Shown here in pieces: positions 3,346 through 36,093 of a stretch of 64,000 bases of DNA. The position numbers and the translations under genes were made by a program. The number at the start of each line of letters is the position of its first letter. Position 1 is the stretch's first letter. The DNA comes from Antedon mediterranea (taxonomy: Eukaryota > Echinodermata > Crinoidea > Comatulida > Antedonidae), in assembly GCF_964355755.1 (NCBI RefSeq), contig NC_092673.1, forward strand, positions 3,725,001-3,789,000, in the 5' to 3' direction. The notes below the pieces were generated by a model. The model did not search any database, was not told where the DNA came from, and saw nothing but the letters and a program-made list of their open reading frames with translations.

Positions 3346-5480
3346 TTCCGCATCTATAAATAGAAAACAATTTGAGGTATGTCATCAAGACAAAACTGAA
3401 ACCTCCAAGAATAATATGTATTGACAATTTATTTATTTATTTATTTTTTCAGATTTCTAGAGTAGAGAGAGAGATTTCATGAATACTCATGCTTAAAGGC
3501 GCTTCACATCATAAAGACAATATTAAACCGATACATCAATAACAGTAACAAAAAAAGTAATAATTAAATTCAATTGTTATTATGGTATCATCATTTCGAT
3601 CATCCAGGCTCCATAACAAAATGATGGAGATCTTGAAATGATTTGATACCGGTGTGTTTTTTTCTTTTTGTGTGTGTCTGCCTTTCTTATTTAAACTTAT
3701 TTATGCCATTGATTTTGTAACTATTTCCAAAACAAAAGCAAAACGAATGAATGAATGAATGAATTCAACAACTATTTCGACAAAAATTAACATAATGATA
3801 GACTAAACAAATAGAACAACAACAAAAATCATTTGGTCGAGAGACGACATGGTGACTCAAACAAGTCCGTCGCTGTTGTCCCTCCTCATATACACAATCC
3901 ATACAAAAAAAACAAGGTAGGCCTACTAACACATATAGACACAAAAAAAAACAAGCGCCGCAAATTCATAACATTGGCAGATGTTTGTATTTATGGGCCA
4001 CTAATCCACTGTACATCAGTTAGATATTGAAGAATGTAAGTAAAATATTTACGAAGTTTAAAACATTTAAGTTACGTCGGATATTCCTCCCAGCATAACG
4101 CACAACTGAGCCACTGTGTTTCAGCGTTTGTTTGTACAAAATAATAGACAACAAAATTTATACTTACTTGCCAATATGCCTATAAAACTTCTAATAATTG
4201 ATATTTCAGAATTTATTTAAGATAAAATGCCAGTTCTTTGCTCCTGACGTCTATACGTTAAGCATTAGTGTACACGTTATCATAGAGCATGATGCATATA
4301 ACATTATTTGCAAACATCAAAGGGGAAAAACATGGTTCCGACGCTCAAATCAACCAATAAGAGAATGATGAGCTATGATATCATATATTTGTTTATTTTT
4401 CATGACAGGTGTTCAATTAACTCCTCTCTCACTACTTTGGCGTTCAGTGTAATTTATTAAACATGATTCCCGTAAAATGTGTTTCTCATCATTACCACTG
4501 TCAATTAACACAAAATCTAAAGTTCATCTCTTCTGTCTCATGACAACGTAAATGCAATAGGCCTACTAATAGATGGATTTACGCAAGGGCGTGGGCTTCG
4601 GCCAGTGGAGTGATGCGTCTTCATCAACGTGGTTCAGGCTTGTCCCCCACCCCCTCCTCCTAAAAATTATATTTATTCAATAAAAGGGCCAATAACTATA
4701 TAAAGCCTCCGTTTTAAGAAGAACCTGTAGTCAAAATTAGGGCCTACAAAGTAGCCTACTGTAAGGAGCCTATTTCGAAATCTTTGATTGGACGACTTTA
4801 TCTTTTGAGTAGGCCTAACGCTTTTGCAAATCAATCATAGGCCTGATCAGTCATTTTCATATTCCTAACAAAATAAAATAAAAAGTACATAAGTAAAATA
4901 TAAAATTCTACTAATTGAGATAATAAGAAGAAAATAAACAACACATTCCAATCATCGATTGAGGAAACGCGTTCTTTAATCGTTTGCGTTTCTTGATAAT
5001 TTAAAATAGGCCTACTATAAATATTCGGAGATTGAATATTCGTGTGAAAAGGGTTGTGAAAAGAGGTAAAGTATTTCATCAGAAAATGAAGACATAAATA
5101 TACAGAGTATTCAATGTAAATTTAGTTAACTTTTGTCAGACTCTTAAATTGACATTAGAAAATTAGTTATATTTTGTGTTGTATTTTGTTGTAGTATTTG
5201 TGTAGGCCTACCTATCCCAACTGTAACATGTTTCTGAAAACCACATGAACCCGATGCAAGCCTGCTGAGAGGTGGTGGTTTCTAGGCACGTATGCGTGGG
5301 CCTAGAAAAAGAGCCTAGCTTACACAAAATATGAAGCGCGTCATAAATATTAATTTGTAAATCTATTTTAGAAATTAAATGTAGTAACCTATACCTAATG
5401 TTATTCCTTTTTTCCAAAGAATATTGTTTATTTGTAGCTAGGCTAGGCCTTCCCCTGCGTTTCTGCTCTCTGCCGACGAA
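3346..5480. other. Intergenic region between GPCR and EXD3
   Basis: No coding frame convinces me here. The stretch holds TTTA-rich sequence at 3430-3460, a (TGAA)n tract near 3747-3765 that looks like a LINE 3' tail, and otherwise AT-rich DNA. TAGGCCTA-like words recur at 3917, 4559, 4740 and 4808. Confidence 0.5.
3650..3768 (+). repeat. Probable LINE 3' tail ending in (TGAA)n
   Basis: A T-rich 3'-UTR-like segment ends in four to five TGAA units. CR1/L2-clade LINEs commonly end in short tandem repeats of this kind. The same tail appears in reverse at 50807-50825, next to a reverse-transcriptase C-terminal frame, which supports the reading. Confidence 0.4.
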
Positions 5481-14600: not shown

Positions 14601-17600
14601 GAGTTTAAGCTCTGTCTACATTATCAAACTTTATGCGACGAAAAAATGTGATGTGCCCATATATGGACATGATGATGTCATATCACTACCATATTTGGGC
14701 ATATCTCATTTTTTGGTCACATAAAGTTTGATAGTGTAGAGTTTAAGAAGTTACTTGAGCTTTTAACTTATGTATCCTTTTATCTTTTGATCCTAGCACT
14801 GGATGCATATTGCTTGCTGGAAGTGTTTAATTACATGATGGGTAAAGCTGATTCCATTGGCCTGAATATTGATTTAAAATCTGCATTTATAATGAACTCT
14901 CCAACAAAGAAGGTGAAAACAAAAAGAAACAAGAGGAGAGACAAAGAAAAGGCTGTCGTCTCACTTGCTGATATCTCTTTAGTAAGTATAAAATATTTTG
15001 TTTTATCAAACCCAATCAAATAGTTGTAAGGAACAGTGAAGGTAGTCTACATTGAGTGTCATCGTTTTAGCTAACTATCTGGCCCAAAGATAAGCTTCCA
15101 ATACCATTATGGTACCAGCTAATGGAACTGAAATTTCCTTTGTTTAGTCGAATGATAGCTACAAGGAACCAATAACACCACAAGAGTTAGCTGTTGTCTG
15201 TGACACCATGCTTCAAGGATTAGGGAGGCAGCTAAGGTCATGTGGAGTTGATGTAAAGGTTCTAGAAAATGACCAAGATCACAGTCAAGCCGTTGAGGTA
15301 TATATGGCATTGTACTCATTTGGCACCATATGACATACATACTTTTTTATGATATTTTGTGATATTTAGGCAAATTGCCAAGGATAACCAAAAATGAATT
15401 CCTCCACATCCTTCTTAAAGGTGGCAATCCCATTCACAAGACATACACCGTACACAAAAGATACTCTACATAAACAAAGTTGTAATTTGTCATTAGAAAA
15501 AAATCATATGACAGGACAGGAACCTAGGACCCTTGTAGGCAAGCATCATAACCACCAAGCCATAAATCCACTCCACACATACAGTTTTATAAAAAAAAGA
15601 ATTTATTAAACTACTATTGACTTGACTGCTACAAAATTGTTTGTTTTGTTTTTGTAGATCGCCAGAGCTGATGGTCGAATTATTCTCACCAGAGGAACAC
15701 CATATATATCAGTAAGTTACTTTGTTGAATTGTTAGTGATTGAAAACTTGTTTTTCATAGAAACCAAGCATGTTTGCTCACTACACAAATTATCAACGTT
15801 TTATTTAAAAAAGTATTTTGAAACTTTTCTTTGCAGTTGCGCTCACAAGTTGGTGATGACCTTTGCTACCTTGTGAGATGCGTGAAAGCTTGCGACCAAC
15901 TGGAAGAAGTTTTAAATTTCTACAATGTACGCGTCATGGCAAAGGACATATTCAGCAGATGCCAGGTAAGCATTGTTTTTGTATAGACTTTTTGGAGGAG
16001 TGGCAAGATACTAGTCTTCCAATCCAGTATTGCTAGTCTTCCAATCCAGTGCTACTATAGTCTTCCAATCCAGTACTACTATAGTCTTCCAATCCAGTAC
16101 TACTTCTAGTCTTCCAATCCAGTACTTCTTCTAGTCTTCCAATCCAGTACTCCTAGTCTTCCAATCCAGTGCTACTAGTCTTCCAATCCAGTGCTACTAG
16201 TCTTCCAATCCAGTACTCCTAGTCTTCCAATCCAGTACTCCTAGTCTTCCAATCCAAAACTACTAGTCTTCCAATCCAGTACTACTAGTCTTCCAATCCA
16301 GTACTACTAGTCTTCCAATCCAGTACTACTAGTCTTCCAATCCAGTGCTACTACTCTTTCAATCCAGTACTACTAGTCTTCCAATCCAGTACTACTAGTC
16401 TTCCAATCCAGTACTACTAGTCTTCCAATCCAGTACTACTAGTCTTCCAATCTAGTGCTACTAGTCTTCCAATCCAGTGCTACTACTCTTCCAATCCAGT
16501 ACTACTAGTCTTCCAATCCAGTACTACTAGTCTTCCAATCCAGTACAACTAGTCTTCCAATCTAGTGCTACTAGTCTTCCAATCCAGTGCTACTACTCTT
16601 CCAATCCAGTACTACTAGTCTTCCAATCCAGTACTACTAGTCTTCCAATCCAGTGCTACTAGTCTTCCAATCCAGTGCTACTAGTCTTCCAATCCAGTGC
16701 TACTAGTCTTCCAATCCAGTGCTACTAGTCTTTCAATCCAGTGCTACTAGTCTTCCAATCCAGTACTACTAGTCTTCCAATCCAGTACTACTAGTCTTCC
16801 AATCCAAAACTACTAGTCTTCCAATCCAAAACTACTAGTCTTCCAATCCAGTACTACTACTAGTCTTCCAATCCAGTACTACTACTAGTCTTCCAATCCA
16901 GTACTACTACTAGTCTTCCAATCTAGTACTACTACTAGTCTTCCAATCCAGTACTACTAGTCTTCCAATCCAGTACTACTAGTCTTCCAATCCAGTACTA
17001 CTAGTCTTCCAATCCAGTGCTACTAGTCTTCCAATCCAGTGCTACTAGTCTTCCAATCCAGTGCTACTAGTCTTCCAATCCAGTGCTACTAGTCTTCCAA
17101 TCCAGTGCTACTAGTCTTCCAATCCAGTGCTACTAGTCTTCCAATCCAAAACTACTAGTCTTCCAATCCAGTGCTACTAGTCTTCCAATCCAGTGCTACT
17201 AGTCTTCCAATCCAGTGCTACTACTACTATGTATGCATAAACATAATTTACCCTTTTCTTTTAAGATGTGCAACGGTAATGCTTATGCCAAAGTGTCTTC
17301 TTCTACCATGAAAGAAGCCTATGAAAAGAAAAATGCAAGACAACATGGCCCAGCGGAAATGGGTTTATACTCTGACCCCTACGGCTTTGGTGATGACGAA
17401 TTTGACGAAGACGATGGGTTTTACTTTGACTCTGATGTTCTACCAGGTCACGAACCGAATGACTTTTATGAAAGTTATCCTCAAGATCTTCCTGTAGAAG
17501 ATTCTATAATGTACATGCCACAAGCTGAACAGAACGAGGGAGCTGTAGCAGGCTCGTCAAATTTAAACTATAAAGAAGGTGTTGTGTTTTCCAGTAGTGG

Positions 17601-17859
17601 AATTGATATGAATAACCTAACAGTTGGCGATGACGTTGAAATCCAAATGAATGTAATACAGGGCAGTATTTTAGATAGTGTAGACATATTCTATATCTGT
17701 ACTACATGTGGAAAGATTTACTGGGAGGGAAGACATTTCTCAAATGTTTTGGAACAGTATGCACATATTCTTCATAGAGGATCTGATGAGGAGGGCAGCG
17801 CACATGGAATGTTCCAGCATGATGATGATGATAGCATTGAAGGTGGCCTAGTGTTTTAA
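5641..17859 (+). CDS. EXD3: EXD3 / mut-7-like 3'-5' exonuclease (15 coding exons)
   Basis: Coding exons: 5641-5937, 6083-6259, 7393-7532, 8026-8197, 11742-11938, 12754-12922, 13021-13082, 13282-13412, 13735-13844, 14006-14168, 14797-14981, 15148-15297, 15658-15711, 15837-15965 and 17266-17859. All junctions are GT/AG with matching phases; total 2730 bp, 909 residues, close to human EXD3 (about 876). The N-terminal half is helical. The DEDDy exonuclease runs about 385-600: motif I IGIDMEW with D392 and E394, motif II GYGIRNDL with D455, motif III YAALDAY with Y538 and D542. From about 616 a Mut7-C domain begins (D620 in VVCDTMLQGLGRQLRSCG), ending in a zinc ribbon with C711/C714 and C857/C860. 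Worm MUT-7 works in small-RNA silencing and fly Nibbler trims miRNA/piRNA 3' ends; an RNA-trimming role is inferred. The ATG follows an in-frame TAA. Confidence 0.9.
6305..6440. mobile_element. TA-flanked palindromic MITE (family M1), EXD3 intron 2
   Basis: About 136 bp with terminal inverted repeats near AAGCTCTGTCTACACT and its complement, flanked by TA. The core carries the family words CATATATGGACA and ATATCACTACCATATTTGG. It is one of eleven copies in this window, and the TA target suggests a Tc1/mariner-type source. Confidence 0.85.
7070..7130 (+). pseudogene. Decayed duplicate of EXD3 exon 3
   Basis: After a good acceptor (TTATCGCAG) the sequence GTGGTTAAACCTCTAGTCTTG continues almost as at the true exon 3 (7393). 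It reads VVKPLVLLDKLNLAETYLK against VIVPLVLQDKLNLAEAYLK. It then breaks off into ATTAATAATAG instead of the rest of the exon and has no donor. It is therefore a fragment of a local tandem duplication and probably not spliced. Confidence 0.8.
7198..7365. mobile_element. M1-family MITE inside the duplicated EXD3 intron copy
   Basis: An element of about 165 bp begins CTCTGTCTGCATTATC and ends GATAGTGTAGACAGAGCC, with TA at both edges. It sits in the downstream copy of the duplicated intron/exon segment and is absent from the upstream copy, so it inserted after that duplication. Confidence 0.8.
8560..10075. mobile_element. 1.5-kb element with 20-bp inverted ends and TTAA flanks
   Basis: The left end TTAAAGATGTATTGTCCCTT and the right end AAGGGACAATACATCTTTAA are perfect 20-bp inverted repeats 1516 bp apart, in EXD3 intron 4. 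Read as TTAA plus AGATGTATTGTCCC, the ends match the TTAA target duplication of piggyBac elements. No transposase frame lies inside, so it is non-autonomous. Related single ends occur at 38505-38525 (GGGAGACAATACATATTTAA) and 47550-47570 (GGGGACAATACATCTTTAA). Confidence 0.75.
10636..11075. repeat. 85-bp satellite, about five units
   Basis: CACGTGTATTTATCGTGCGAG recurs with starts at 10638, 10723, 10808, about 10895 and 10980, giving an 85-87-bp period, followed by a shortened partial unit. The units are nearly identical apart from small indels, implying recent expansion. All but one carry a CACGTG E-box; the fourth reads TACGTG. Overlapping open frames across it are a by-product of the period. 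Confidence 0.9.
11562..11690. mobile_element. M1-family MITE, damaged
   Basis: The core (AGTGTGATGTGCCCAAATATGG ... GGGCATATCACATTTGTTTGTC ... AAAGTTTGATAGTTTAATC) matches the family, but both outer ends have decayed. It lies about 50 bp before EXD3 exon 5. Confidence 0.7.
12048..12122 (+). repeat. tRNA-derived SINE head
   Basis: CAGTGGTCTAATAGAACATC resembles a Pol III A box. A 5-bp anticodon-type stem (TCTGC/GCAGA) with a 7-nt loop follows. The T-arm CTGGG-TTTGAAC-CTCAG contains the B box. No convincing acceptor stem closes it, so I call a SINE rather than a tRNA gene. Confidence 0.6.
12541..12608 (-). repeat. tRNA-derived SINE head
   Basis: On the minus strand GTGGTCTAATGGTTATTACAC resembles a tRNA A box, and GGTTACAGATTTTAATTCC is a degenerate B box. 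It lies 40 bp from a second tRNA-like segment in EXD3 intron 5. Confidence 0.55.
12638..12722 (-). repeat. tRNA-derived SINE head
   Basis: On the minus strand TTTAGTGGTTTGGTTGTTATTG is followed by the intact B box GGGTTCAAATCC. It ends about 30 bp from the EXD3 exon 6 acceptor. Confidence 0.6.
13460..13715 (-). repeat. Dispersed repeat, probable retroposon 3' tail
   Basis: Between EXD3 exons 8 and 9, the minus strand reads into GGTCACCCAGTATAAATAAA, a 3'-tail-like ending after a more GC-rich body than the surrounding intron. No coding frame is present. The assignment rests on composition and tail only. Confidence 0.35.
14240..14465 (-). repeat. tRNA-derived SINE
   Basis: On the minus strand GAGCTGTGGTGGTTTAGATG (A-box-like) and TTCAGTTCAAATCCTG (B box) are followed by a body containing AACGACTTTGTTTGTGTAAA. 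The same body motif occurs in the element at 15405-15585, so the two belong to one family. Confidence 0.65.
14606..14745. mobile_element. M1-family MITE, EXD3 intron 10
   Basis: Begins TAAGCTCTGTCTACATTATC and ends GTTTGATAGTGTAGAGTTTA, with the family core ATATATGGACATGATGATGTC. It is close to full length. Confidence 0.85.
15400..15585 (-). repeat. tRNA-derived SINE
   Basis: The minus strand reads GGCTTGGTGGTTATGATGC (A box) and CCTAGGTTCCTGTCCTG (B-box-like), followed by a body with ACAACTTTGTTTATGTAGAG. That body parallels the SINE at 14240-14465. Confidence 0.6.
16008..17228. repeat. Minisatellite of 21-24-bp units in EXD3 last intron
   Basis: About 57 copies of TACTAGTCTTCCAATCCAG-type units fill the intron between exons 14 and 15 almost completely. 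Variants are TACTAC/TGCTAC spacers, one to three TAC triplets, and AAAACTACT substitutions. Each unit contains a pyrimidine run followed by CCAG, like a weak 3' splice site. The real acceptor (CCCTTTTCTTTTAAG) lies about 40 bp after the array. Confidence 0.95.
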
Positions 17860-18343: not shown

Positions 18344-18352
18344 ATCACATTC
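18344..18352. repeat. Left target-site duplication of the foldback element
   Basis: ATCACATTC directly precedes the element; the right flank has ATTACATTC (36085-36093), one mismatch in nine. A 9-bp duplication is typical of Drosophila FB and of Mutator-like elements. Confidence 0.6.
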
Positions 18353-18508
18353 GCTTGTGTCAAGCTAGCCAACAATAAGCCAGCCAACAATAAGCCAGCC
18401 CACTTTTATTTTTTCCAGCCAACAATAACTATGAAACGCCGTTTGTGCATTCTTTACATTTTCATTGTTACTTATGGCTTTTATGGTATTAGGAATTAAA
18501 TATTTGTG
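18353..18508 (+). repeat. Left outer end of the foldback element
   Basis: It starts with a small hairpin (GCTTG-TGT-CAAGC), then two and a half copies of a 15-bp repeat, AGCCAACAATAAGCC, and a unique segment to the first array unit. The inverted copy at 35929-36084 matches base for base over nearly its whole length. Confidence 0.85.
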
Positions 18509-21500
18509 AGAAAAACGGCGGATTGTTCCTGGGATTCACTAGGTGGGATTATACTAGGGTACCCCCTTAGTCGTCCAGTATAAGTTAGAGTGGGACCAAT
18601 GGTCCCGTTTACTCAGCCCTCATCTTTAAAATTTGAGTGTAACTCAATTACAATTTTTAAAATATAGTTAAATTTGAAACTGTATTTGTGAGAAAATGGC
18701 GGATTGTTCCTGGGAGTCACTTGGTGGGATTAAACTAGGGTACCCCCTTAGTCGTCCAGTATAAGTTAGAGTGCGACCACTGGTCCCGTTTACTCAGCCC
18801 TCATCTTTAAAATTTGAGTGTAACTCAATTACAATTTTTAAAATATAGTTAAATTTGAAACTGTATTGGTGAGAAAATGGCGGATTGTTCCTGGGAGTCA
18901 CTTGGTGGGATTATACTAGGATACCTCCTTAGTCGTACACTATAAGTTAGAGTGGGACCACTGGTACTATTTACTCAGCCCTCATCTTTTAAATTTGAGT
19001 GTAACTCATTTACGATATAAAAAATATAGTGAAATTTGATACTGTATTTGTGAGAAAATGGCGGATTGTTCCTGGGAGTCACTTGGTGGGATTATACTAG
19101 GGTACCTCCTTAGTTGTCCAGTATAAGTTAGAGTGGGACCACTGGTCCCGTTTACTCAGCCCTCATCTTTAACATTTGAGTGTAACTCATTTACGATTTT
19201 TAAAATATAGTGAAATTTGATACTGTATTTGTGAGAAAACGGCGGATTGTTCCTGAGAGTCACTTGGTGGGATTATACTAGGGTGCCTCCTTAGTAGTCC
19301 AGTATAAGTTAGAGTGGGACCACTGGTCCCGTTTACTCAGCCCTCATCTTTTAAATTTGAGTGTAACTCATTTACGATTTAAAAAATATAGTGAAATTAG
19401 ATACTGTATTTGTGAGAAAACGGCGGATTGTTCCTGGGAGTCACATGGTGGCATTATACTAAGGTACGCCCTTAGTCGTCCAGTATAAGTTAGAGTGCGA
19501 CCACTGGTTCCGTTTACTCAGCCCTCATCTTTTAAATTTGAGTGTAACTCAATTGCGGTAAACATTTTTAAAATATAGTGAAAATTGATACTGTATTTGT
19601 GAGAAAATGGCGGATTTTTCCTTGGAGTCACTTGGTGGGATTATACTAGGGTACCTCCTTAGTTGTCCAGTAGAAGTTAGAGTGGGACCACTGGTCCCGT
19701 TTACTCAGCCCTCATCTTTAACGTTTGAGGGTAACTCAATTACGATTAATATTTTAAAATATAGTGAAATTTGATACTGTATTTGTGAGAAAATGGCGGA
19801 TTGTTCCCGAGAGTCACTTGGTGGGATTATACTAGGGTACCTCCTTAGTTGTCCAGTTTAAGTTAGAGTGGGACCACTGGTCCCGTTTACTCAGCCCTTA
19901 TCTTTAAAATTTGAGTGTAACTCATTTACGATTAATATTTTAAAATATAGTGAAATTTGATACTGTATTTGTGAGAAAATGGCGGATTGTTCCTGGGAGC
20001 CACTTGGTGGGATTATACTAGGGTACCCCCTTAGTTGTCCAGTATAAGTTAGAGTGGGACCACTGGTCCCGTTTACTCAGCCCTCATCTTTAAAATTTGA
20101 GTGTAACTCATTTACGATTTTAAAAATATAGTGAAATTTGATACTGTATTTGTGAGAAAACGGCGGATTGTTCCTGGGAGTCACATGGTGGCATTATACT
20201 AAGGTACGTCCTTAGTCGTCCAGTAGAAGTTAGAGTGGGACCACTGGTCCCGTTTACTCAGCCCTCATCTTTAACATTTGAGTGTAACTCAATTACGATT
20301 AATATTTTAAAATATAGTGAAATTTGATACTGTATTTGTGAGAAAATGGCGGATTGTTCCCGAGAGTCACTTGGTGGGATTATACTAGGGTACCTCCTTA
20401 GTTGTCCAGTTTAAGTTAGAGTGGGACCACTGGTCCCGTTTACTCCGCCCTTATCTTTAAAATTTGAGTGTAACTCAATTACGGTAAAACATTTTAAAAT
20501 ATAGTGAAAATTGATACTGTAATTGTGAGAAAATGGCGGATTGTTCCTGGGAGCCACTTGGTGAGATTATACTAGGGTACCCCCTTAGTTGTGCAGTATA
20601 AGTTAGAGTGGGACCACGGGTCCCGTTTACTCAGCCCTCATCTTTAAAATTTGAGTGTAACTCATTTACGATTTTTAAAATATAGTAAAATTTGAAACTG
20701 TATTTGTGAGAAAACGGCGGATTGTTCTTGAGAGTCACTTGGTGGGATTATATTAGGGTACCTCCTTAGTTGTCCAGTATAAGTTAGAGTGGGACCACTG
20801 GTCCCGTTTACTCAGCCCTCATCTTTAAAATTTGAGTGTAACTCATTTACGATTTTAAAAATATAGTGAAATTTGATACTGTATTTGTGAGAAAACGGCG
20901 GATTGTTCCTGGGAGTCACATGGTGGCATTATACTAAGGTACGTCCTTAGTCGTCCAGTATAAGTTAGAGTGCGACCACTGGTTCCGTTTACTCAGCCCT
21001 CATGTTTTAAATTTAAGTGTAACTCAATTACTGTAAAAAATTTTAAAATATAGTGAAAATTGATACTGTATTTGTGAGAAAATGGCGGATTGTTCCTTGG
21101 ATTCACTTGGTGGGATTATACTAAGGTACCTCCTTAGTTGTCCAGTAGAAGTTAGAGTGGGACCACTGGTCCCGTTTACTCAGCCCTCATCTTTAACGTT
21201 TGAGTGTAACTCAATTACGATTAATATTTTAAAATATAGTGAAATTTGATACTGTATTTGTGAGAAAATGGCGGATTGTTCCTGGGAGTCACTTGGTGGG
21301 ATTATACTAGGGTACCTCCTTAGTTGTCCAGTATAAGTTAGAGTGGGACCACTGGTCCCGTTTACTCAGCCCTCATCTTTAACATTTGAGTGTAACTCAT
21401 TTACGATTTTTAAAATATAGTGAAATTTGATACTGTATTTGTGAGAAAACGGCGGATTGTTCCTGAGAGTCACTTGGTGGGATTATACTAGGGTGACTCC

Positions 21501-24500
21501 TTAGTAGTCCAGTATAAGTTAGAGTGGGACCACTGGTCCCGTTTACTCAGCCCTCATCTTTTAAATTTGAGTGTAACTCATTTACGATTTTAAAAATATA
21601 GTGAAATTAGATACTGTATTTGTGAGAAAACGGCGGATTGTTCCTGGGAGTCACATGGTGGCATTATACTAAGGTACGCCCTTAGTCGTCCAGTATAAGT
21701 TAGAGTGCGACCACTGGTTCCGTTTACTCAGCCCTCATCTTTTAAATTTGAGTGTAACTCAATTACGGTAAAAAATTTTAAAATATAGTGAAAATTGATA
21801 CTGTATTTGTGAGAAAATGGCGGATTGTTCCTTGGAGTCACTTGGTGGGATTATACTAGGGTACCTCCTTAGTTGTCCAGTAGAAGTTAGAGTGGGACCA
21901 CTGGTCCCGTTTACTCAGCCCTCATCTTTAACGTTTGAGGGTAACTCAATTACGATTAATATTTTAAAATATAGTGAAATTTGATACTGTATTTGTGAGA
22001 AAATGGCGGATTGTTCCCGAGAGTCACTTGGTGGGATTATACTAGGGTACCTCTTTAGTTGTCCAGTTTAAGTTAGAGTGGGACCACTGGTCCCGTTTAC
22101 TCAGCCCTAATCTTTAAAATTTGAGTGTAACTCATTTACGATTAATATTTTAAAATATAGTGAAATTTGATACTGTATTTGTGAGAAAATGGCAGATTGT
22201 TCCTGGGAGCCAATTGGTGGGATTATACTAGGGTACCCCCTTAGTTGTGCAGTATAAGTTAGAGTGGGACCACTGGTTCCGTTTACTCAGGCCTCATCTT
22301 TAAAATTTGAGTGTAACTCATTTACGATTTTTAAAATATAGTAAAATTTGAAACTGTATTTGTGAGAAAACGGCGGATTGTTCCTGAGAGTCACTTGGTG
22401 GGATTATACTAAGGTACCTCTTTAGTTGTCCAGTATAAGTTAGAGTGGGACCACTGGTCCCGTTTACTCAGCCCTCATCCTTAAAATTTGAGTGTAACTC
22501 ATTTACGATTTTAAAAATATAGTGAAATTTGATACTGTATTTGTGAGAAAACGGCGGATTGTTCCTGGGAGTCACATGGTGGAATTATACTAAGGTACGT
22601 CCTTAGTCGTCCAGTAGAAGTTAGAGTGGGACCACTGGTCCCGTTTACTCAGCCCTCATCTTTAACGTTTGAGTGTAACTCAATTACGATTAATATTTTA
22701 AAATATAGTGAAATTTGATACTGTATTTGTGAGAAAATGGCGGATTGTTCCCGAGAGTCACTTGGTGGGATTATACTAGGGTACCTCCTTAGTTGTCCAG
22801 TTTAAGTTAGAGTGGGACCACTGGTCCCGTTTACTCAGCCCTTATCTTTAAAATTTGAGTGTAACTCAATTACGGTAAAACATTTTAAAATATAGTGAAA
22901 ATTGATACTGTATTTGTGAGAAAATGGCGGATTTTTCCTTGGAGTCACTTGGTGGGATTATACTAGGGTACCTCCTTAGTTGTCCAGTAGAAGTTAGAGT
23001 AGGACCACTGGTCCCGTTTACTCAGCCTTCATCTTTAACGTTTGAGTGTAACTCAATTACGATTAATATTGTAAAATATAGTGAAATTTGATACTGTATT
23101 TGTGAGAAAATGGCGGATTGTTCCCGAGAGTCACTTGGTGGGATTATATTAAGGTACCTCCTTAGTTGTCCAGTATAAGTTAGAGTGGGACCACTGGTCC
23201 CGTTTACTCAGCCCTCATCTTTAACATTTGAGTGTAACTCATTTACGATTTTTAAAATATAGTGAAATTTGATACTGTATTTGTGAGAAAACGGCGGATT
23301 GTTCCTGAGAGTCACTTGGTGGGATTATACTAGGGTGACTCCTTAGTAGTCCAGTATAAGTTAGAGTGGGACCACTGGTCCCGTTTACTCAGCCCTCATC
23401 TTTTAAATTTGAGTGTAACTCATTTACGATTTTAAAAATATAGTGAAATTAGATACTGTATTTGTGAGAAAACGGCGGATTGTTCCTGGGAGTCACATGG
23501 TGGCATTATACTAAGGTACGCCCTTAGTCGTCCAGTATAAGTTAGAGTGCGACCACTGGTTCCGTTTACTCAGCCCTCATCTTTTAAATTTGAGTGTAAC
23601 TCAATTACGGTAAAAATTTTTAAAATATAGTGAAAATTGATACTGTATTTGTGAGAAAATGGCGGATTGTTCCTTGGAGTCACTTGGTGGGATTATACTA
23701 GGGTACCTCCTTAGTTGTCCAGTAGAAGTTAGAGTGGGACCACTGGTCCCGTTTACTCAGCCCTCATCTTTAACGTTTGAGGGTAACTCAATTACGATTA
23801 ATATTTTAAAATATAGTGAAATTTGATACTGTATTTGTGAGAAAATGGCGGATTGTTCCCGAGAGTCACTTGGTGGGATTATACTAGGGTACCTCTTTAG
23901 TTGTCCAGTTTAAGTTAGAGTGGGACCACTGGTCCCGTTTACTCAGCCCTAATCTTTAACATTTGAGTGTAACTCATTTACGATTAATATTTTAAAATGT
24001 AGTGAAATTTGATACTGTATTTGTGAGAAAATGGCAGATTGTTCCTGGGAGCCAATTGGTGGGATTATACTAGGGTACCCCCTTAGTTGTGCAGTATAAG
24101 TTAGAGTGGGACCACTGGTTCCGTTTACTCAGGCCTCATCTTTAAAATTTGAGTGTAACTCATTTACGATTTTTAAAATATAGTAAAATTTGAAACTGTA
24201 TTTGTGAGAAAACGGCGGATTGTTCCTGAGAGTCACTTGGTGGGATTATACTAAGGTACCTCCTTAGTTGTCCAGTATAAGTTAGAGTGGGACCACTGGT
24301 CCCGTTTACTCAGCCCTCATCCTTAAAATTTGAGTGTAACTCATTTACGATTTTAAAAATATAGTGAAATTTGATACTGTATTTGTGAGAAAACGGCGGA
24401 TTGTTCCTGGGAGTCACATGGTGGAATTATACTAAGGTACGTCCTTAGTCGTCCAGTAGAAGTTAGAGTGGGACCACTGGTCCCATTTACTCAGCCCTCA

Positions 24501-27125
24501 TCTTTAACGTTTGAGTGTAACTCAATTACGATTAATATTTTAAAATATAGTGAAATTTGATACTGTATTTGTGAGAAAATGGCGGATTGTTCCCGAGAGT
24601 CACTTGGTGGGATTATACTAGGGTACCTCCTTAGTTGTCCAGTTTAAGTTAGAGTGGGACCACTGGTCCCGTTTACTCAGCCCTTATCTTTAAAATTTGA
24701 GTGTAACTCAATTACGGTAAAACATTTTAAAATATAGTGAAAATTGATACTGTATTTGTGAGAAAATGGCGGATTTTTCCTTGGAGTCACTTGGTGGGAT
24801 TATACTAGGGTACCTCCTTAGTTGTCCAGTAGAAGTTAGAGTAGGACCACTGGTCCCGTTTACTCAGCCCTCATCTTTAACGTTTGAGTGTAACTCAATT
24901 ACGATTAATATTGTAAAATATAGTGAAATTTGATACTGTATTTGTGAGAAAATGGCGGATTGTTCCCGAGAGTCACTTGGTGGGATTATACTAAGGTACC
25001 TCCTTAGTTGTCCAGTTTAAGTTAGAGTGGGACCACTGGTTCCGTTTACTCAGCCCTTATCTTTAAAATTTGAGTGTAATTCATTTACGATTAATATTTT
25101 AAAATATAGTGAAAGTTGATACTGTATTTGTGAGAAAATGGCGGATTGTTCCTGGGAGCCACTTGGTGAGATTATACTAGGGTACCCCCTTAGTTGTGCA
25201 GTATAAGTTAGAGTGGGACCACTGGTCCCGTTTACTCAGCCCTCATCTTTAAAATTTGAGTGTAACTCATTTACGATTTTTAAAATATAGTAAAATTTGA
25301 AACTGTATTTGTGAGAAAACGGCGGATTGTTCCTGAAAGTCACTTGGTGGGATTATACTAGGGTACCTCCTTAGTTGTCCAGTATAAGTTAGAGTGGGAC
25401 CACTGGTCCCGTTTACTCAGCCCTCATCTTTAAAATTTGAGTGTAACTCATTTACGATTTTAAAAATATAGTGAAATTTGATACTGTATTTGTGAGAAAA
25501 CGGCGGATTGTTCCTGGGAGTCACATGGTGGCATTATACTAAGGTACGTCCTTAGTCGTCCAGTATAAGTTAGAATGCGACCACTGGTTCCGTTTACTCA
25601 GCCCTCATGTTTTAAATTTGAGTGTAACTCAATTACTGTAAAAAATTTTAAAATATAGTGAAAATTGATACTGTATTTGTGAGAAAATGGCGGATTGTTC
25701 CTTGGAGTCACTTGGTGGGATTATACTAGGGTACCTCCTTAGTTGTCCAGTAGAAGTTAGAGTGGGACCACACTGGTCCCGTTTATTCAGCCCTCATCTT
25801 TAACGTTTGAGTGTAACTCAATTACGATTAATATTGTAAAATATAGTGAAATTTGATACTGTATTTGTGAGAAAATGGCGGATTGTTCCCGAGAGTCACT
25901 TGGTGGGATTATACTAGGGTACCTCCTTAGTGGTCCAGTTTAAGTTAGAGTGGGACCACTGGTCCCGTTTACTCAGCCCTTATCTTTAAAATTTGAGTGT
26001 AACTCATTTACGATTAATATTTTAAAATATAGTGAAATTTGATACTGTATTTGTGAGAAAATGGCGGATTGTTCCTGGGAGCCACTTGGTGGGATTATAC
26101 TAGGGTACCCTCTTAGTTGTGCAGTATAAGTTAGAGTGGGACCACTGGTCCCGTTTACTCAGCCCTCATCTTTAAAATTTGAGTGTAACTCATTTACGAT
26201 TTTTAAAATATAGTAAAATTTGAAACTGTATTTGTGAGAAAACGGCGGATTGTTCCTGAGAGTCACTTGGTGGGATTATACTAGGGTACCTCCTTAGTTG
26301 TCCAGTATAAGTTAGAGTGGGACCACTGGTCCCGTTTACTCAGCCCTCATCTTTAAAATTTGAGTGTAACTAATTTACGATTTTAAAAATATAGTGAAAT
26401 TTGATACTGTATTTGTGAGAAAACGGCGGATTGTTCCTGGGAGTCAAATGGTGGCATTATACTAAGGTACGTCCTTAGTCGTCCAGTATAAGTTGGAGTG
26501 CGACCACTGGTTCCGTTTACTCAGCCCTCATCTTTTAAATTTGAGTGTAACTCAATTACGGTAAAAAAATTTAAAATATAGTGAAAATTGATACTGTATT
26601 TGTGAGAAAATGGCGGATTGTTCCTTGGAGTCACTTGGTGGAATTATACTAGGGTACCTCCTTAGTTGTCCAGTAGAAGTTAGAGTGGGACCACTGGTCC
26701 CGTTTACTCAGCCCTCATCTTTAAAATTTGAGTGTAACTCATTTACGATTTTTAAAATATAGTAAAATTTGAAACTGTATTTGTGAGAAAACGGCGGATT
26801 GTTCCTGAGAGTCACTTGGTGGGATTATAGTAGGGTACCTCCTTAGTTGTCCAGTATAAGTTAGAGTGGGACCACTGGTCCCGTTTACTCAGCCCTCATC
26901 TTTAAAATTTGAGTGTAACTCATTTACGATTTTTAAAATATAGTGAAATTTGATACTGTATTTGTGAGAAAACGGCGGATTGTTCCTGAAAGTCACTTGG
27001 TGGGATTATACTAGGGTACCCCCTTAGTCGTCCAGTATAAGTTAGAGTGGGACCACTGGTCCCGTTTACTCAGCCCTCATCTTTAAAATTTGAGTGTAAC
27101 TCATTTACGATTTTTAAAATATAGT
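18509..27125 (+). repeat. Left arm: about 47 tandem 183-bp units
   Basis: Successive GGCGGATTG landmarks at 18517, 18698, 18879, 19060 and 19241 give a 181-bp period; units with an ATTAATATT insertion are a few bases longer. Each unit holds the palindromes GGGACCACTGGTCCC and GAGTGTAACTC, and a GGTACC. Units fall into recognisable variants (CGGCGG/TGGCGG, GTGCC/GTACC, CAGTAGAAG/CAGTATAAG). These variants recur as a ten-unit higher-order repeat between about 21.3 and 25.0 kb. Confidence 0.95.
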
Positions 27126-27195
27126 TTAGAGTGGGACCACTGGTACAAATTTCACTATATTTTATTTTTTTTATTTTTTTTATTTATTAATTTAA
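27126..27195. other. Centre of the foldback palindrome
   Basis: The arrays meet through TTTCACTATATTTTATTTTT, a T-rich run and TTTATTAATTTAAAAGATG. Array sequence reads forward on the left and reversed on the right, leaving only an AT-rich spacer as the loop. Confidence 0.8.
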
Positions 27196-30100
27196 AAGAT
27201 GAGGGCTGAGTAAACGGAACAAGTGGTACCACTCTAACTTTTACTGGACGACCAAGGAGGTACCCTAGTACAATCCCACCAAGTGACTCTCAGGAACAAT
27301 CCGCCATTTTTTCACAAATACAGTTTCAAATTTCACTATATTTTAAAAATCGTAAATGAGTTACACTCAAATTTTAAAAATGAGGGCTGAGTAAACGGGA
27401 CCAGTGGTCCCACTCTAACTTATACTGGACGACTAAGTGGGTACCCAAGTATAATCCCACCAAGTGACTCCCAGGAACAATCCGCCATTTTCTCACAAAT
27501 ACAGTATCAAATTTCACTATATTTTTAAAATCGTAAATGAGTTACACTCAAATTTTAAAGATGAGGGCTGAGTAAACCGGACCAGTGGTCCCACTCTAAC
27601 TTATACTGGACGACTAAGGGGGTACCCTAGTATAATCCCACCAAGTGACTGCCAGGAACAATCCGCCATTTTCTCACAAATACAGTATCAAATTTAACTA
27701 TATTTTAAAATATTAATCGTAATTGAGTTACACTCAAATTTTAAAGATAAGGGCTGAGTAAACGGGACCAGTGGTCCCACTCTAACTTAAACTGGACAAC
27801 TAAGGAGGTACCCTAGTATAATCCCACCAAGTGACTCCCAGGAACAATCCGCCATTTTCTCACAAATACAGTATCAATTTTCACTATATTTTAAATGTTT
27901 TTATCGTAATTGAGTTACACTCAAATTTAAAAGATGAGGGCTGAGTAAACGGAACCAGTGGTCGCATTCTAACTTATACTGGACGACTAAGGACGTACCT
28001 TAGAGTATTATCCCACCATGTGACTCCCAGGAAAAATCCGCCGTTTTCTCACAAATACAGTATCTAATTTCTCTATATTTTTAAAATCGTAAATGAGTTA
28101 CACTCTAATTTAAAAGATGAGGGCTGAGTAAACGGGAACAGTGGTCCCACTCTAACTTCTACTGGACGACTAAGGAGGCACCCTAGTATAATCCCACCAA
28201 GTGACTCTCAGGAACAATCCGCCGTTTTCTCACAAATACAGTATCAAATTTTACTATATTTTAAAAATCGTAAATGAGTTACACTCAAATTTAAAAGATG
28301 AGGGCTGAGTAAACGGGACCAGTGGTCCCACTCTAACTTATACTGGACGACTAAGGGGGTACCCTAGTATAATCCCACCAAGTGACTCTAAGGAACAATC
28401 CGCCGTTTTCTCACAAATACAGTATCAAATTTCACTATATTTTAAAAATCGTAAATGAGTTACACTCATATTTTTAAGATGAGGGCTGAGTAAACGGGAC
28501 CAGTGGTCCCACTCTAACTTATACTGGACAACTAAGAAGGTACCCTACTATAATCCCACAAAGTGACTCCCAGGAACAATCCGCCATTTTCTCACAAATA
28601 CAGTATCAAATTTCACTATATTTTTAAAAATCGTAAATGAGTTACACTCAAATTTTAAAGATGAGGGCTTAGTAAACGGGACCAGTGGTCCCACTATAAC
28701 TTATACTGGACGGCTAAGGGTACGGTGTACCCTAGTATAATCCCACCAAGTGACTCTCAGGAACAATCCGCCGTTTTCTCACAAATACAGTTTCAAATTT
28801 CACTATAATTTAAAAATCGTAAATGAGTTACACTCAAATTTTAAAGATGAGGGCTGAGTAAACGGGACAAGTGGTCCCACTCTAACTTATACTGGACGAC
28901 TAAGGGGGTACCCTAGTATAATCCCACCAAGTGACTCCAAGGAACAATCCGCCATTTTCTCACAAATACAGTATCAAATTTCACTATATTTTAAAAATCG
29001 TAAATGAGTTACACTCAAATTTTAAAGATGAGGGCTGAGTAAACCGGACCAGTGGTCCCACTCTAACTTATACTGGACGACTAAGGAGGTACCCTAGTAT
29101 AATCCCACCAAGTGACTCCCAGGAACAATCCGCCATTTTCTCACAAATACAGTATCAATTTTCACTATATTTTAAATTTTTTAATCGTAATTGAGTTACA
29201 CTCAAATTTAAAAGATGAGGGCTGAGTAAACGGAACCAGTGGTCGCACTCTAACTTATACTGGACGACCAAGGACGTACCTTAGTATAATCCCACCATGT
29301 GACTCCCAGGAAAAATCCGCCGTTTTCTCACAAATACAGTATCTAATTTCTCTATATTTTTAAAATCGTAAATGAGTTACACTCAAATTTAAAAGATGAG
29401 GGCTGAGTAAACGGGACCAGTGGTCCCACTCTAACTTCTACTGGACGACTAAGGAGGCACCCTAGTATAATCCCACCAAGTGACTCTCAGGAACAATCCG
29501 CCGTTTTCTCACAAATACAGTATCAAATTTTACTATATTTTAAAAATCGTAAATGAGTTACACTCAAATTTAAAAGATGAAGGCTGAGTAAACGGGACCA
29601 GTGGTCCCACTCTAACTTATACTGGACGACTAAGGGGGTACCCTAGTATAATCCCACCAAGTGACTCTAAGGAACAATCCGCCGTTTTCTCACAAATACA
29701 GTATCAAATTTCACTATATTTTAAAAATCGTAAATGAGTTACACTCAAATTTTAAAGATGAGGGCTGAGTAAACGGGACCAGTGGTCCCACTCTAACTTA
29801 TACTGGATAACTAAGAAGGTACCCTAGTATAATCCCACAAAGTGACTCCCAGGAACAATCCGCCATTTTCTCACAAATACAGTATCAAATTTCACTATAT
29901 TTTTTAAAATCGTAAATGAGTTACACTCAAATTTTAAAGATGAGGGCTTAGTAAACGGGACCAGTGGTCCCACTATAACTTATACTGGACGACTAAGGGT
30001 ACGGTGTACCCTAGTATAATCCCACCAAGTGACTCTCAGGAACAATCCGCCGTTTTCTCACAAATACAGTTTCAAATTTCACTATATTTTAAAAATCGTA

Positions 30101-33100
30101 AATGAGTTACACTCAAATTTTAAAGATGAGGGCTTAGTAAACGGGACCAGTGGTCCCACTATAACTTATACTGGACGACTAAAGGGGTACCCTAGTATAA
30201 TCCCACCAAGTGACTCCAAGGAACAATCCGCCATTTTCTCACAAATACAGTATCAAATTTCACTATATTTTAAAAATCGTAAATGAGTTACACTCAAATT
30301 TTAAAGATGAGGGCTGAGTAAACCGGACCAGTGGTCCCACTCTAACTAATACTGGACGACTAAGGAGGTACCCTAGTATAATCCCACCAAGTGACTCCCA
30401 GGAACAATCCGCCGTTTTCTCACAAATACAGTATCAAATTTCACTATATTTTAAAATATTAATCGTAATTGAGTTACACTAAAAAACTTTAAAGATGAGG
30501 GCTGAGTAAACGGAACCAGTGGTCGCACTCTAACTTAAACTGGACGACTAAGGACGTACCCTAGTATAATCCCACCAAGTGACTCCCAGGAACAATCCGC
30601 CATTTTCTCACAAATACAGTATCAATTTTCACTATATTTTAAAAATGTTATCGTAATTGAGTTACACTCAAATTTAAAAGATGAGGGCTGAGTAAACGGG
30701 ACCAGTGGTCCCACTCTAACTTATAGTGGACGGATATTGAGGTTCCCTAGTATAATCCCACCAAGTGACTCCCAGGAACAATCCGCCATTTTCTTACAAA
30801 TACAGTATCAAATTTCACTATATTTTAAAATATTAATCGTAAGTGAGTTAAACTCAAATTTAAAAGATGAGGGCTGAGTAAACGGGACCAGTGGTCCAAC
30901 TCTAACTTTACTGGACCACTAAGGAGGTACCCTAGTATAATCCCACCAAGTGACTCCCAGGAACAATCGGCCATTTTCTCACAAATACAGTATCAAATTT
31001 CACTATATTTTAAAATATTAATCGTAATTGAGTTACACTCAAATTTAAGAGATGACGGTTTAGTAAACGGGGCCAGTGGTCCCACTCTAACTTATACTGG
31101 ACGACTAATGACGTACCCTAGTATAATCCCACCATGTGACTCCCAGAAACAATCCGCCGTTTTCTCACAAATACAGTATCAAATTTCACTATTTTTTTAA
31201 AATCGTAAATGAGTTACACTCAAATTTAAAAGATGAGGGCTTAGAGTAAACGGGACCAGTGGTCCCACTTTAACTTATACTGGACGACTAAGGGGGTACC
31301 CTAGTATAATCCCACCAAATGACTCTCAGGAACAATCCGCCGTTTTCTCACAAATACAGTATCAAATTTCACTATATTTTTAAAATCGTAAATGAGTTAC
31401 ACTCAAATTTTAAAGATGAGGGCTGAGTAAACCGGACCAGTGGTCCCACTCTAACTTATACTGGACGACTAAGGGGGTACCCTAGTATAATCCCACCAAG
31501 TGACTGCCAGGAACAATCCGCCATTTTCTCACAAATACAGTATCAAATTTAACTATATTTTAAAATATTAATCGTAATTGAGTTACACTCAAATTTTAAA
31601 GATAAGGGCTGAGTAAACGGGACCAGTGGTCCCACTCTAACTTAAACTGGACAACTAAGGAGGTACCCTAGTATAATCCCACCAAGTGACTCCCAGGAAC
31701 AATCCGCCATTTTCTCACAAATACAGTATCAATTTTCACTATATTTTAAATGTTTTTATCGTAATTGAGTTACACTCAAATTTAAAAGATGAGGGCTGAG
31801 TAAACGGAACCAGTGGTCGCATTCTAACTTATACTGGACGACTAAGGACGTACCTTAGAGTATTATCCCACCATGTGACTCCCAGGAAAAATCCGCCGTT
31901 TTCTCACAAATACAGTATCTAATTTCTCTATATTTTTAAAATCGTAAATGAGTTACACTCTAATTTAAAAGATGAGGGCTGAGTAAACGGGAACAGTGGT
32001 CCCACTCTAACTTCTACTGGACGACTAAGGAGGCACCCTAGTATAATCCCACCAAGTGACTCTCAGGAACAATCCGCCGTTTTCTCACAAATACAGTATC
32101 AAATTTTACTATATTTTAAAAATCGTAAATGAGTTACACTCAAATTTAAAAGATGAGGGCTGAGTAAACGGGACCAGTGGTCCCACTCTAACTTATACTG
32201 GACGACTAAGGGGGTACCCTAGTATAATCCCACCAAGTGACTCTAAGGAACAATCCGCCGTTTTCTCACAAATACAGTATCAAATTTCACTATATTTTAA
32301 AAATCGTAAATGAGTTACACTCATATTTTTAAGATGAGGGCTGAGTAAACGGGACCAGTGGTCCCACTCTAACTTATACTGGACAACTAAGAAGGTACCC
32401 TACTATAATCCCACAAAGTGACTCCCAGGAACAATCCGCCATTTTCTCACAAATACAGTATCAAATTTCACTATATTTTTAAAAATCGTAAATGAGTTAC
32501 ACTCAAATTTTAAAGATGAGGGCTTAGTAAACGGGACCAGTGGTCCCACTATAACTTATACTGGACGGCTAAGGGTACGGTGTACCCTAGTATAATCCCA
32601 CCAAGTGACTCTCAGGAACAATCCGCCGTTTTCTCACAAATACAGTTTCAAATTTCACTATAATTTAAAAATCGTAAATGAGTTACACTCAAATTTTAAA
32701 GATGAGGGCTGAGTAAACGGGACAAGTGGTCCCACTCTAACTTATACTGGACGACTAAGGGGGTACCCTAGTATAATCCCACCAAGTGACTCCAAGGAAC
32801 AATCCGCCATTTTCTCACAAATACAGTATCAAATTTCACTATATTTTAAAAATCGTAAATGAGTTACACTCAAATTTTAAAGATGAGGGCTGAGTAAACC
32901 GGACCAGTGGTCCCACTCTAACTTATACTGGACGACTAAGGAGGTACCCTAGTATAATCCCACCAAGTGACTCCCAGGAACAATCCGCCATTTTCTCACA
33001 AATACAGTATCAATTTTCACTATATTTTAAATTTTTTAATCGTAATTGAGTTACACTCAAATTTAAAAGATGAGGGCTGAGTAAACGGAACCAGTGGTCG

Positions 33101-35928
33101 CACTCTAACTTATACTGGACGACCAAGGACGTACCTTAGTATAATCCCACCATGTGACTCCCAGGAAAAATCCGCCGTTTTCTCACAAATACAGTATCTA
33201 ATTTCTCTATATTTTTAAAATCGTAAATGAGTTACACTCAAATTTAAAAGATGAGGGCTGAGTAAACGGGACCAGTGGTCCCACTCTAACTTCTACTGGA
33301 CGACTAAGGAGGCACCCTAGTATAATCCCACCAAGTGACTCTCAGGAACAATCCGCCGTTTTCTCACAAATACAGTATCAAATTTTACTATATTTTAAAA
33401 ATCGTAAATGAGTTACACTCAAATTTAAAAGATGAAGGCTGAGTAAACGGGACCAGTGGTCCCACTCTAACTTATACTGGACGACTAAGGGGGTACCCTA
33501 GTATAATCCCACCAAGTGACTCTAAGGAACAATCCGCCGTTTTCTCACAAATACAGTATCAAATTTCACTATATTTTAAAAATCGTAAATGAGTTACACT
33601 CAAATTTTAAAGATGAGGGCTGAGTAAACGGGACCAGTGGTCCCACTCTAACTTATACTGGATAACTAAGAAGGTACCCTAGTATAATCCCACAAAGTGA
33701 CTCCCAGGAACAATCCGCCATTTTCTCACAAATACAGTATCAAATTTCACTATATTTTTTAAAATCGTAAATGAGTTACACTCAAATTTTAAAGATGAGG
33801 GCTTAGTAAACGGGACCAGTGGTCCCACTATAACTTATACTGGACGACTAAGGGTACGGTGTACCCTAGTATAATCCCACCAAGTGACTCTCAGGAACAA
33901 TCCGCCGTTTTCTCACAAATACAGTTTCAAATTTCACTATATTTTAAAAATCGTAAATGAGTTACACTCAAATTTTAAAGATGAGGGCTTAGTAAACGGG
34001 ACCAGTGGTCCCACTATAACTTATACTGGACGACTAAAGGGGTACCCTAGTATAATCCCACCAAGTGACTCCAAGGAACAATCCGCCATTTTCTCACAAA
34101 TACAGTATCAAATTTCACTATATTTTAAAAATCGTAAATGAGTTACACTCAAATTTTAAAGATGAGGGCTGAGTAAACCGGACCAGTGGTCCCACTCTAA
34201 CTAATACTGGACGACTAAGGAGGTACCCTAGTATAATCCCACCAAGTGACTCCCAGGAACAATCCGCCGTTTTCTCACAAATACAGTATCAAATTTCACT
34301 ATATTTTAAAATATTAATCGTAATTGAGTTACACTAAAAAACTTTAAAGATGAGGGCTGAGTAAACGGAACCAGTGGTCGCACTCTAACTTAAACTGGAC
34401 GACTAAGGACGTACCCTAGTATAATCCCACCAAGTGACTCCCAGGAACAATCCGCCATTTTCTCACAAATACAGTATCAATTTTCACTATATTTTAAAAA
34501 TGTTATCGTAATTGAGTTACACTCAAATTTAAAAGATGAGGGCTGAGTAAACGGGACCAGTGGTCCCACTCTAACTTATAGTGGACGGATATTGAGGTTC
34601 CCTAGTATAATCCCACCAAGTGACTCCCAGGAACAATCCGCCATTTTCTTACAAATACAGTATCAAATTTCACTATATTTTAAAATATTAATCGTAAGTG
34701 AGTTAAACTCAAATTTAAAAGATGAGGGCTGAGTAAACGGGACCAGTGGTCCAACTCTAACTTTACTGGACCACTAAGGAGGTACCCTAGTATAATCCCA
34801 CCAAGTGACTCCCAGGAACAATCGGCCATTTTCTCACAAATACAGTATCAAATTTCACTATATTTTAAAATATTAATCGTAATTGAGTTACACTCAAATT
34901 TAAGAGATGACGGTTTAGTAAACGGGGCCAGTGGTCCCACTCTAACTTATACTGGACGACTAATGACGTACCCTAGTATAATCCCACCATGTGACTCCCA
35001 GAAACAATCCGCCGTTTTCTCACAAATACAGTATCAAATTTCACTATTTTTTTAAAATCGTAAATGAGTTACACTCAAATTTAAAAGATGAGGGCTTAGA
35101 GTAAACGGGACCAGTGGTCCCACTTTAACTTATACTGGACGACTAAGGGGGTACCCTAGTATAATCCCACCAAATGACTCTCAGGAACAATCCGCCGTTT
35201 TCTCACAAATACAGTATCAAATTTCACTATATTTTTAAAATCGTAAATGAGTTACACTCAAATTTTAAAGATGAGGGCTGAGTTAACGGGACCAGTGGTC
35301 CCACTCTAACTTATACTGGACAACTAAGGAGGTACCCTAGTATAATCCCACCAAGTGACTCCCAGGAACAATCCGCCATTTTTTCACAAATACAGTATCA
35401 AATTTCACTATATTTTTTAAATCGTAAATGAGTTACACTCAAATTTAAAAGATAAGGGCTGAGTAAACTATACCAGTGGTCCCACTCTAACTTTTCCTGT
35501 ACGACTTAGGAGGCACCCTAGTATAATCCCACCAAGTGACTCTCAGGAACAATCCGCCATTTTCTCACCAATACAGTTTCAAATTTAACTATATTTTAGA
35601 AATTGTAATTGAGTTACACTCAAATTTTAAAGATGAGGGCTGAGTAAACGAGACCAGTGGTCGCACTCTAACTTATACTGGACGACTAAGGGGGTACCCT
35701 AGTATAATCCCACCAAGTGACTCCCAGGAACAATCCGCCATTTTCTCACAAATACAGTTTCAAATTTAACTATATTTTAAAAATCATAATTGAGTAACAC
35801 TCAAATTTTAAAGATGAGGGCTGAGTAAACGGGACCATTGGTCCCACTCTAACTTATACTGGACGACTAAGGGGGTACCCTAGTATAATCCCACCAAGTG
35901 AATCCCAGGAACAATCTGCCGTTTTTCT
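27196..35928 (-). repeat. Right arm: about 48 tandem 183-bp units, inverted
   Basis: The same unit as the left arm in opposite orientation, seen as CAATCCGCC every 181-187 bp. It contains a head-to-tail duplication of 3855 bp (21 units): 27489-31343 recurs at 31344-35198 and matches on to about 35281. Every stretch I compared was identical. Short open frames at 30029-30286 and 33884-34141 are identical copies of array sequence, not genes. Confidence 0.95.
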
Positions 35929-36084
35929 CACAAATATTTAATTCCTAATACCATAAAAGCCATAAGTAACAATGAAAATGTAAAGAATGCACAAACGGCG
36001 TTTCATAGTTATTGTTGGCTGGAAAAAATAAAAGTGGGCTGGCTTATTGTTGGCTGGCTTATTGTTGGCTAGCTTGACACAAGC
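35929..36084 (-). repeat. Right outer end of the foldback element
   Basis: The inverted copy of 18353-18508, carrying the same 15-bp repeats (GGCTTATTGTTGGCT in this orientation) and ending GGCTAGCTTGACACAAGC. Confidence 0.85.
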
Positions 36085-36093
36085 ATTACATTC
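36085..36093. repeat. Right target-site duplication of the foldback element
   Basis: ATTACATTC follows the element end and pairs with ATCACATTC at 18344-18352, with one mismatch. Confidence 0.6.

Follow-up and report, generated by a model that had tools for sequence, protein, structure and literature searches.

A foldback transposon with giant satellite arms and a candidate coding relative in the crinoid Antedon mediterranea

How do two long arrays of one satellite come to face each other across a few tens of bases, as they do at a 17.7-kb locus of the crinoid Antedon mediterranea? The locus lies in the window, the whole 64,000-nucleotide stretch analysed here (C4:3725001-3789000, part of a 354-Mb genome in 18 contigs), and an earlier note made from the sequence alone had read it as an exceptionally large foldback transposon. 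The outline drawn there held on measurement. The element ends at 18353 and 36084, as claimed, between the flanking 9-mers ATCACATTC (18344..18352, forward strand) and ATTACATTC (36085..36093, forward strand), a target-site duplication with one mismatch. A 148-bp left end domain (18353..18500, forward), with the terminal GCTTGTGTCAAGCTAGCC and 15-bp AAGCCAGCCAACAAT repeats, returns as an inverted copy in the right end domain (35937..36084, reverse). The left satellite arm (18501..27125, forward) contains 47 units of 181-188 bp, every one forward, and the right arm (27189..35936, reverse) contains 48, every one reverse; this anchor count found no wrongly oriented unit, and Tandem Repeats Finder gave 46.9 and 47.7 copies of a 181-bp repeat over the same intervals, matching the inverted, nearly identical outer ends and the 47-48 units per arm first described. 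Units are spaced 181-189 bp apart, which makes the original estimate of about 183 bp a fair mean, and the centre, put at tens of bases, comes to 20 bp in a local alignment, or to 63 bp if taken as the gap separating the Tandem Repeats Finder arrays. This A/T-rich orientation switch (27126..27188, unstranded) adjoins a 20-bp displaced unit fragment. The arms are 92% identical when aligned over nearly their whole length, and because shifting the alignment by one unit costs only ~1%, they are two arrays of one satellite and no fresh palindrome. Array lengths throughout are lengths in the assembly.

Several other features share the window. About 0.5 kb from the element, an open frame that partially matches Mut7-C RNase (17203-17859) borders a 22-bp minisatellite of 54 copies (16009-17223), which stops at its edge. 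Three short arrays, at 39227-39267, 44012-44133 and 49436-49483, carry closely similar versions of a 21-bp repeat (around CCAAATATGGTAGTGATATA) in both orientations, and the repeat recurs in L096. A Rhodopsin-family receptor gene occupies a single open frame at 2275-3381.

The element belongs to a real, multi-copy, dispersed family with one kind of end. A genome search for the same ends, a check the earlier note had proposed, returned 67 exact copies of the 18-bp family tip (37 forward, 30 reverse) against 0 for a reversed-pattern control; allowing as many as 3 mismatches over 21 bp gave 82 matches against 1 in the control, some of the 82 being a different small element. Pairing by hand from genomic position placed 53 of the 67 exact tips, together with a 54th that has a single mismatch (C1:25019463), in 27 convergent pairs. 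Tips lie 7.5-33 kb apart in 26 pairs and 79 kb apart in the remaining one. That leaves 14 exact tips without a listed partner; a longer query recovered the other end domain for one of these, C4:17145076.

Two further tip-like sequences were set aside. The abundant near-match GATTGTGTCAAGC is a different repeat in all five copies examined, and the variant GCTTGTGTTAAG, considered as a miniature of the family, is in fact a different small element holding an inverted piece of the family. A small element with TATGGGCGGCCATTAGGG ends, ~1.3-1.6 kb where both ends were seen (C5:10442726, C3:25733841, C9:24319707, C7:10352237, C8:6341384 and C1:26634170; L053-L057, L075-L082, L102), contains an inverted foldback end domain and a few satellite units, so two transposon families share one satellite. 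By eye it shows a 6-bp target repeat in two of the three copies with both flanks.

Target duplications accompany the family's ends. Both junctions were read for all 27 pairs, 340 bp inward at each end, and exact duplications of 9 bp were found in 18 pairs and of 8 bp in 3; imperfect 9-bp duplications carry one mismatch in 4 pairs (including the window element) and two mismatches in 1. In the last pair (L037/L038) the tip is duplicated by 10 bp, the left one (C3:32277395, L037) having an additional copy of its outer 10 bp, and the target duplication, the 9-bp repeat GAAGATCAT, lies outside. When left and right flanks were swapped among elements, 0 of 702 combinations came within one mismatch and 2 of 702 came within two. 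Insertion of the family thus creates a target duplication of 9 bp, or sometimes of 8 bp. Mutator superfamily duplications are about 8-11 bp, a range that the family's 8-9 bp fits; the consulted part of one published account gives 8-10 bp for Mutator (PMC4079207).

Empty sites were sought with 24 of the 27 joined junctions; because scoring covered 40 of 406 first-look candidates, the counts are lower bounds and absence at other sites carries little weight. The joined flanks of C5:1140428, a site within a repeat, match end to end at 98-100% in at least 35 places, 9 of the 35 at 100%, and those of C5:18405830 run uninterrupted at 99% in at least 3. Four of these 38 places were read, and each holds one 9-mer. 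For the window element the same genome search matched just its own two halves; empty sites lacking one 9-mer, whose absence the earlier note had counted as a refutation, were found for two sister elements and not for the window element's own site.

These data bear on the plainest alternative, that two satellite arrays were inverted by rearrangement or assembly error without any transposition. The arrays do behave like ordinary satellite, with higher-order repeats and independent growth, yet the same inverted ends occur at 27 loci, with target duplications against 0 of 702 for swapped flanks, and with empty sites. The recurrence of inverted end domains and flanking duplications at 27 loci means that the inversion is not a single assembly join, the outcome the earlier note had named as fatal to its reading. 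Target duplications and empty sites led us to reject both an assembly join and a plain satellite inversion, and we regard an origin without transposition as extremely improbable. The window element is a foldback-type DNA transposon by structure, as proposed: it has inverted arms of tandem units, a ~9-bp duplication and dispersed copies with the same ends, and two of its sisters have empty sites.

Arm length varies widely across this family. Unit counts for the two arms are 47/48 in the window element, 30/10 in L069, 17/23 in L070, 24/17 in L071, 54/40 in a 33-kb copy on C3 and 39/14 in the 79-kb pair on C6, leaving out lone stray anchor matches (one outside the arms at window 41215, two in C6 and two in the C3 core). 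Arms are of a single orientation in all six elements counted, and 8 of the 12 arms exceed 4 kb. Unit number differs both between arms and between copies. Within the window element, the right arm carries a 21-unit higher-order duplication (27488..35283, reverse) in which 31343-35283 repeats 27488-31428 identically over 3,941 bp with a period of 3,855 bp, and the left arm has its own, distinct multi-unit duplications, among them one with a 10-unit period (21452..24954, forward; 6 differences in 1,661 bp over the nine units compared). Only for the two outermost units is the nearest match the same position of the opposite arm. The arms grow independently of each other. An 18-mer from the unit has 1530 exact genome copies (control, 0); among the 100 matches listed, all on C1, 96 fall within two full elements and the other 4 next to an old end.

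The ends behave differently from the arrays. Tips fall into two classes, GCCAAC (A class, 17 pairs) and GCCGAC (G class, 10 pairs). The first 40 bp are 99.9% conserved across the 34 A-class ends; in the G class the values are 100% and 98.8% without gaps, and 95.5% and 98.5% in a gapped alignment. Divergence of ends and of first units, respectively, is 2.4% and 6.3% within A-class elements and 2.5% and 6.4% between them (34 ends), and 2.1% and 7.1% within G-class elements and 1.8% and 5.8% between them (20 ends); G-class ends thus differ slightly more within than between elements, giving no sign of pairing by descent. Conservation of the 40 bp together with arm-specific duplications indicates that the tips stay almost constant and that the arrays alter one arm at a time. 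The satellite unit also holds a 15-bp dyad, GGGACCACTGGTCCC, at consensus position 75, which reads AGGACC..GGTCCT in the GCCGAC class, a change on both sides that preserves the symmetry. It was considered as a binding site and set aside, since it is conserved no more than the rest of the unit.

Centres were compared in six copies that lack other DNA between the arms: the window element, three short elements read whole (L069, L070 and L071), and L088 and L090, the two of eight centre guesses that met the orientation switch (the other six fell within one arm). In all six the arrays stop at different unit phases; three junctions have overlaps of 1-17 bp, and the other three have fillers of 1-20 bp. 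A single core-less ancestor would be expected to have passed one common junction to its descendants, whereas all six differ, so the middle has probably been lost repeatedly to give core-less copies. We infer independent core loss, for example through aborted gap repair that switches between inverted arms. The forward array ends at phase 151 in the window element and 150 in L088, and phase 151 is likewise where it abuts the core of the C3 copy; the first two, out of twelve ends, offer a lead that phase 150/151 may be the original arm-core border.

That C3 copy (C3:8279859-8313032) is 33 kb long and is flanked by an exact 9-bp duplication. Its tips belong to the A class, and its arms, of 54 and 40 units, enclose a core, 15.7 kb of other DNA placed at the orientation switch. 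Its gene looks intact and comprises an open frame of 1108 codons that encodes a PHD finger (E 5e-6), 39-codon in-frame repeats and a DDE-like part, and a second of 774 codons with UCH (E 1.7e-20), a ubiquitin-specific protease, and Peptidase_C48 (E 1e-18), an Ulp1-type protease. A candidate 343-bp intron with standard splice sites joins the two in frame, giving 1,853 codons from the upstream stop. The left, non-coding part of the core lacks a second full copy, and portions of it match dispersed repeats. Decayed units at the core border were considered and rejected, one edge match (E 1e-8) and one weak match (E 0.09) being too little.

Assignment of the DDE part draws on several comparisons. 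Pfam, including its MULE model, gave no match to this part in the scanned pieces (the 1108-codon frame was scanned in two, leaving out the 39-codon repeat region between them), and our label for it is accordingly Mutator-like, short of membership in the Mutator superfamily. Queried against NCBIfam and PDB sequences, the DDE part produced only matches far below cut-offs or at chance level. By eye, the first aspartate stands in VIDATG, the second in INMD and a CxxH in ACTSH, and the start of the second exon has a glutamate in a stretch resembling the Mutator TNNxxE. When profiles were aligned with hhalign, the DDE part plus three distant relatives scored 34.7 against six Mutator proteins of the genome (E 0.0017, probability 15.5%), with both aspartates in register. 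None of 200 column shuffles reached that score (best 20.4), and the reversed profile scored 18.0. A previous comparison, made with shorter pieces, came out less strong (E 0.011, probability 3.9%). Matched with each of three Mutator groups in turn, the profile scored 16.4, 15.0 and 13.8, inside the spread of the shuffles tested on the full set; the three groups score 22.8, 52.8 and 59.8 among themselves. Together these comparisons are suggestive of a Mutator link for the DDE part, and the C3 copy is, suggestively, the best candidate for an autonomous source of the family.

The gene could instead be a captured passenger or a nested transposon, the true transposase then belonging to an ordinary Mutator family or being absent from the assembly. 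Just one full copy was found in the genome, with distant relatives (21-32% identical) at C2:17927650, C4:13582253 and C10:11147772. At C4:12430315-12433567 lies a decayed copy that keeps the order of the DDE and protease parts, and no end match among the 82 is near it; single occurrence and a decayed copy away from the ends are what make a passenger conceivable. The genome has 36 Mutator (PF10551) matches, several with long open frames, and foldbacks such as Tetris are known without a coding copy, so far as its partly consulted description goes (PMC4079207). Against this, none of the 36 Mutator matches lies between any of the 27 end pairs, and the six loci read have no matching termini within ~3.5 kb, one of them having long terminal inverted repeats unlike the family tips; ordinary Mutator genes were set aside as the autonomous partner on these counts. 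The C3 core, moreover, sits at the orientation switch and not within an array, and its borders show arm units and only short inverted matches of chance size. A passenger gene is, in our judgement, unlikely. Separately, C4:19215500-19222500 (L092) holds a Mutator element with 81-bp identical inverted ends ~6.2 kb apart and a 637-codon open frame.

Membership of the P superfamily was also considered, because Galileo, a foldback look-alike of flies, likewise has long, internally repeated, unequal arms that change length independently. In the portion of the Galileo description available to us, flanking sequences are 7 bp against the 9-bp duplications here, and the longest arms are ~1.26 kb (PMC3573991). 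The scanned parts of the C3 protein match a PHD finger and show no THAP match. A P-type identity is accordingly highly unlikely.

Our preferred reading, which we hold with good confidence, is that the window element is a non-autonomous foldback cut-and-paste transposon served by a C3-type Mutator-like transposase, with repeated loss of its core and arm-wise growth. The Mutator-like DDE transposase encoded in the 15.7-kb C3 core would bind the nearly invariant 40-bp GCTTGTGTCAAGC tips and mobilise copies having two of them. Window-type copies would arise when the core is lost, most simply through aborted gap repair in which the copying strand switches between the inverted arrays; repeated, independent losses of this kind would explain why the centres differ. 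Arrays would then lengthen arm by arm through multi-unit duplications, by unequal exchange or slippage, and the result would be a satellite spread by its own transposon. Two far-apart ends may also move jointly, carrying the DNA between them. A more specific version, towards which we lean only slightly, makes this a giant autonomous foldback family: the 33-kb parent would encode a single protein with PHD, Mutator-like DDE, ubiquitin protease and Ulp1-type (SUMO) protease parts, arms would grow after insertion, template-switch loss of the core would yield pure-satellite copies, and widely spaced end pairs could move tens of kilobases of other DNA.

Two pairs may illustrate the last point. At C6:18981631-19060520, tips 79 kb apart with a one-mismatch duplication bound arms of 39 and 14 units; the ~69 kb between these arms contain PAN and fibrinogen-C matches, along with frames that by eye are retroelement-like. 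At C7:23903809-23935298, tips 31.5 kb apart are flanked by an exact 8-bp duplication, and a second right end domain without a tip lies inside. In each case the outer ends of two elements may have moved jointly, by analogy with Ising's composite TE of the fly, where, according to the section of the account consulted, long DNA is mobilised between two foldbacks (PMC6431247); alternatively, DNA may have inserted later into one element.

Foldbacks with tandem units are known: Drosophila FB has arms of tandem repeats and makes 9-bp duplications, and in sea urchins, which are also marine animals, the arms of the TU foldbacks likewise contain tandem units. The present family resembles both, going by their descriptions, in structure and duplication length alone. 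Foldbacks have also been proposed as a source of satellite DNA. The root-knot nematode family Tm1 is similar in its composite inverted arms with repeats and in having both non-autonomous and transposase-bearing members; its duplications are mostly 9 bp (8-10 bp; 45 of 53), and the title of its description, consulted in part, classes it as Mutator/Foldback (PMC3169594). Tm1 differs in its ~14 bp arm repeats and 496-aa putative transposase, against 181 bp units, a 33-kb coding copy and protease domains here (PMC3169594). Among the titles and abstract openings surveyed in the openly licensed literature, no foldback is described with multi-kb satellite arms or with the C3 domain set, and in the published descriptions examined, each in part, no foldback encodes that set.

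The closest parallel is Tetris of Drosophila virilis. In the portion of its description consulted, Tetris shares an end domain followed by tandem units (~220 bp), target duplications of 8-10 bp, changes of unit copy number within arms and a link to satellite; its arms reach 1,735 bp at most, three of its copies are structurally complete, and no coding copy was found (PMC4079207). Unlike Tetris so described, the Antedon family has 27 complete pairs, 8 of 12 counted arms above 4 kb and a coding candidate (PMC4079207), and the arms of the window element reach the 8.8 kb that the earlier note gave, ~5 times the longest (1.7 kb) in the foldback descriptions examined. Where Tetris as published is a satellite-linked case with short arms and no known transposase (PMC4079207), this one genome holds a coding copy, core-less copies with differing centres and many array lengths, and its target duplications and some empty sites allow events to be ordered. 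The conversion of a transposon into satellite, and the way a transposase handles arms that exceed a typical whole element, become testable questions here; if the proposed mechanism is true, one transposon continuously seeds and spreads a satellite. By structure the window element is of a known kind, a foldback; beside the foldback descriptions examined, its family stands out for the giant arms and the unusual candidate autonomous copy.
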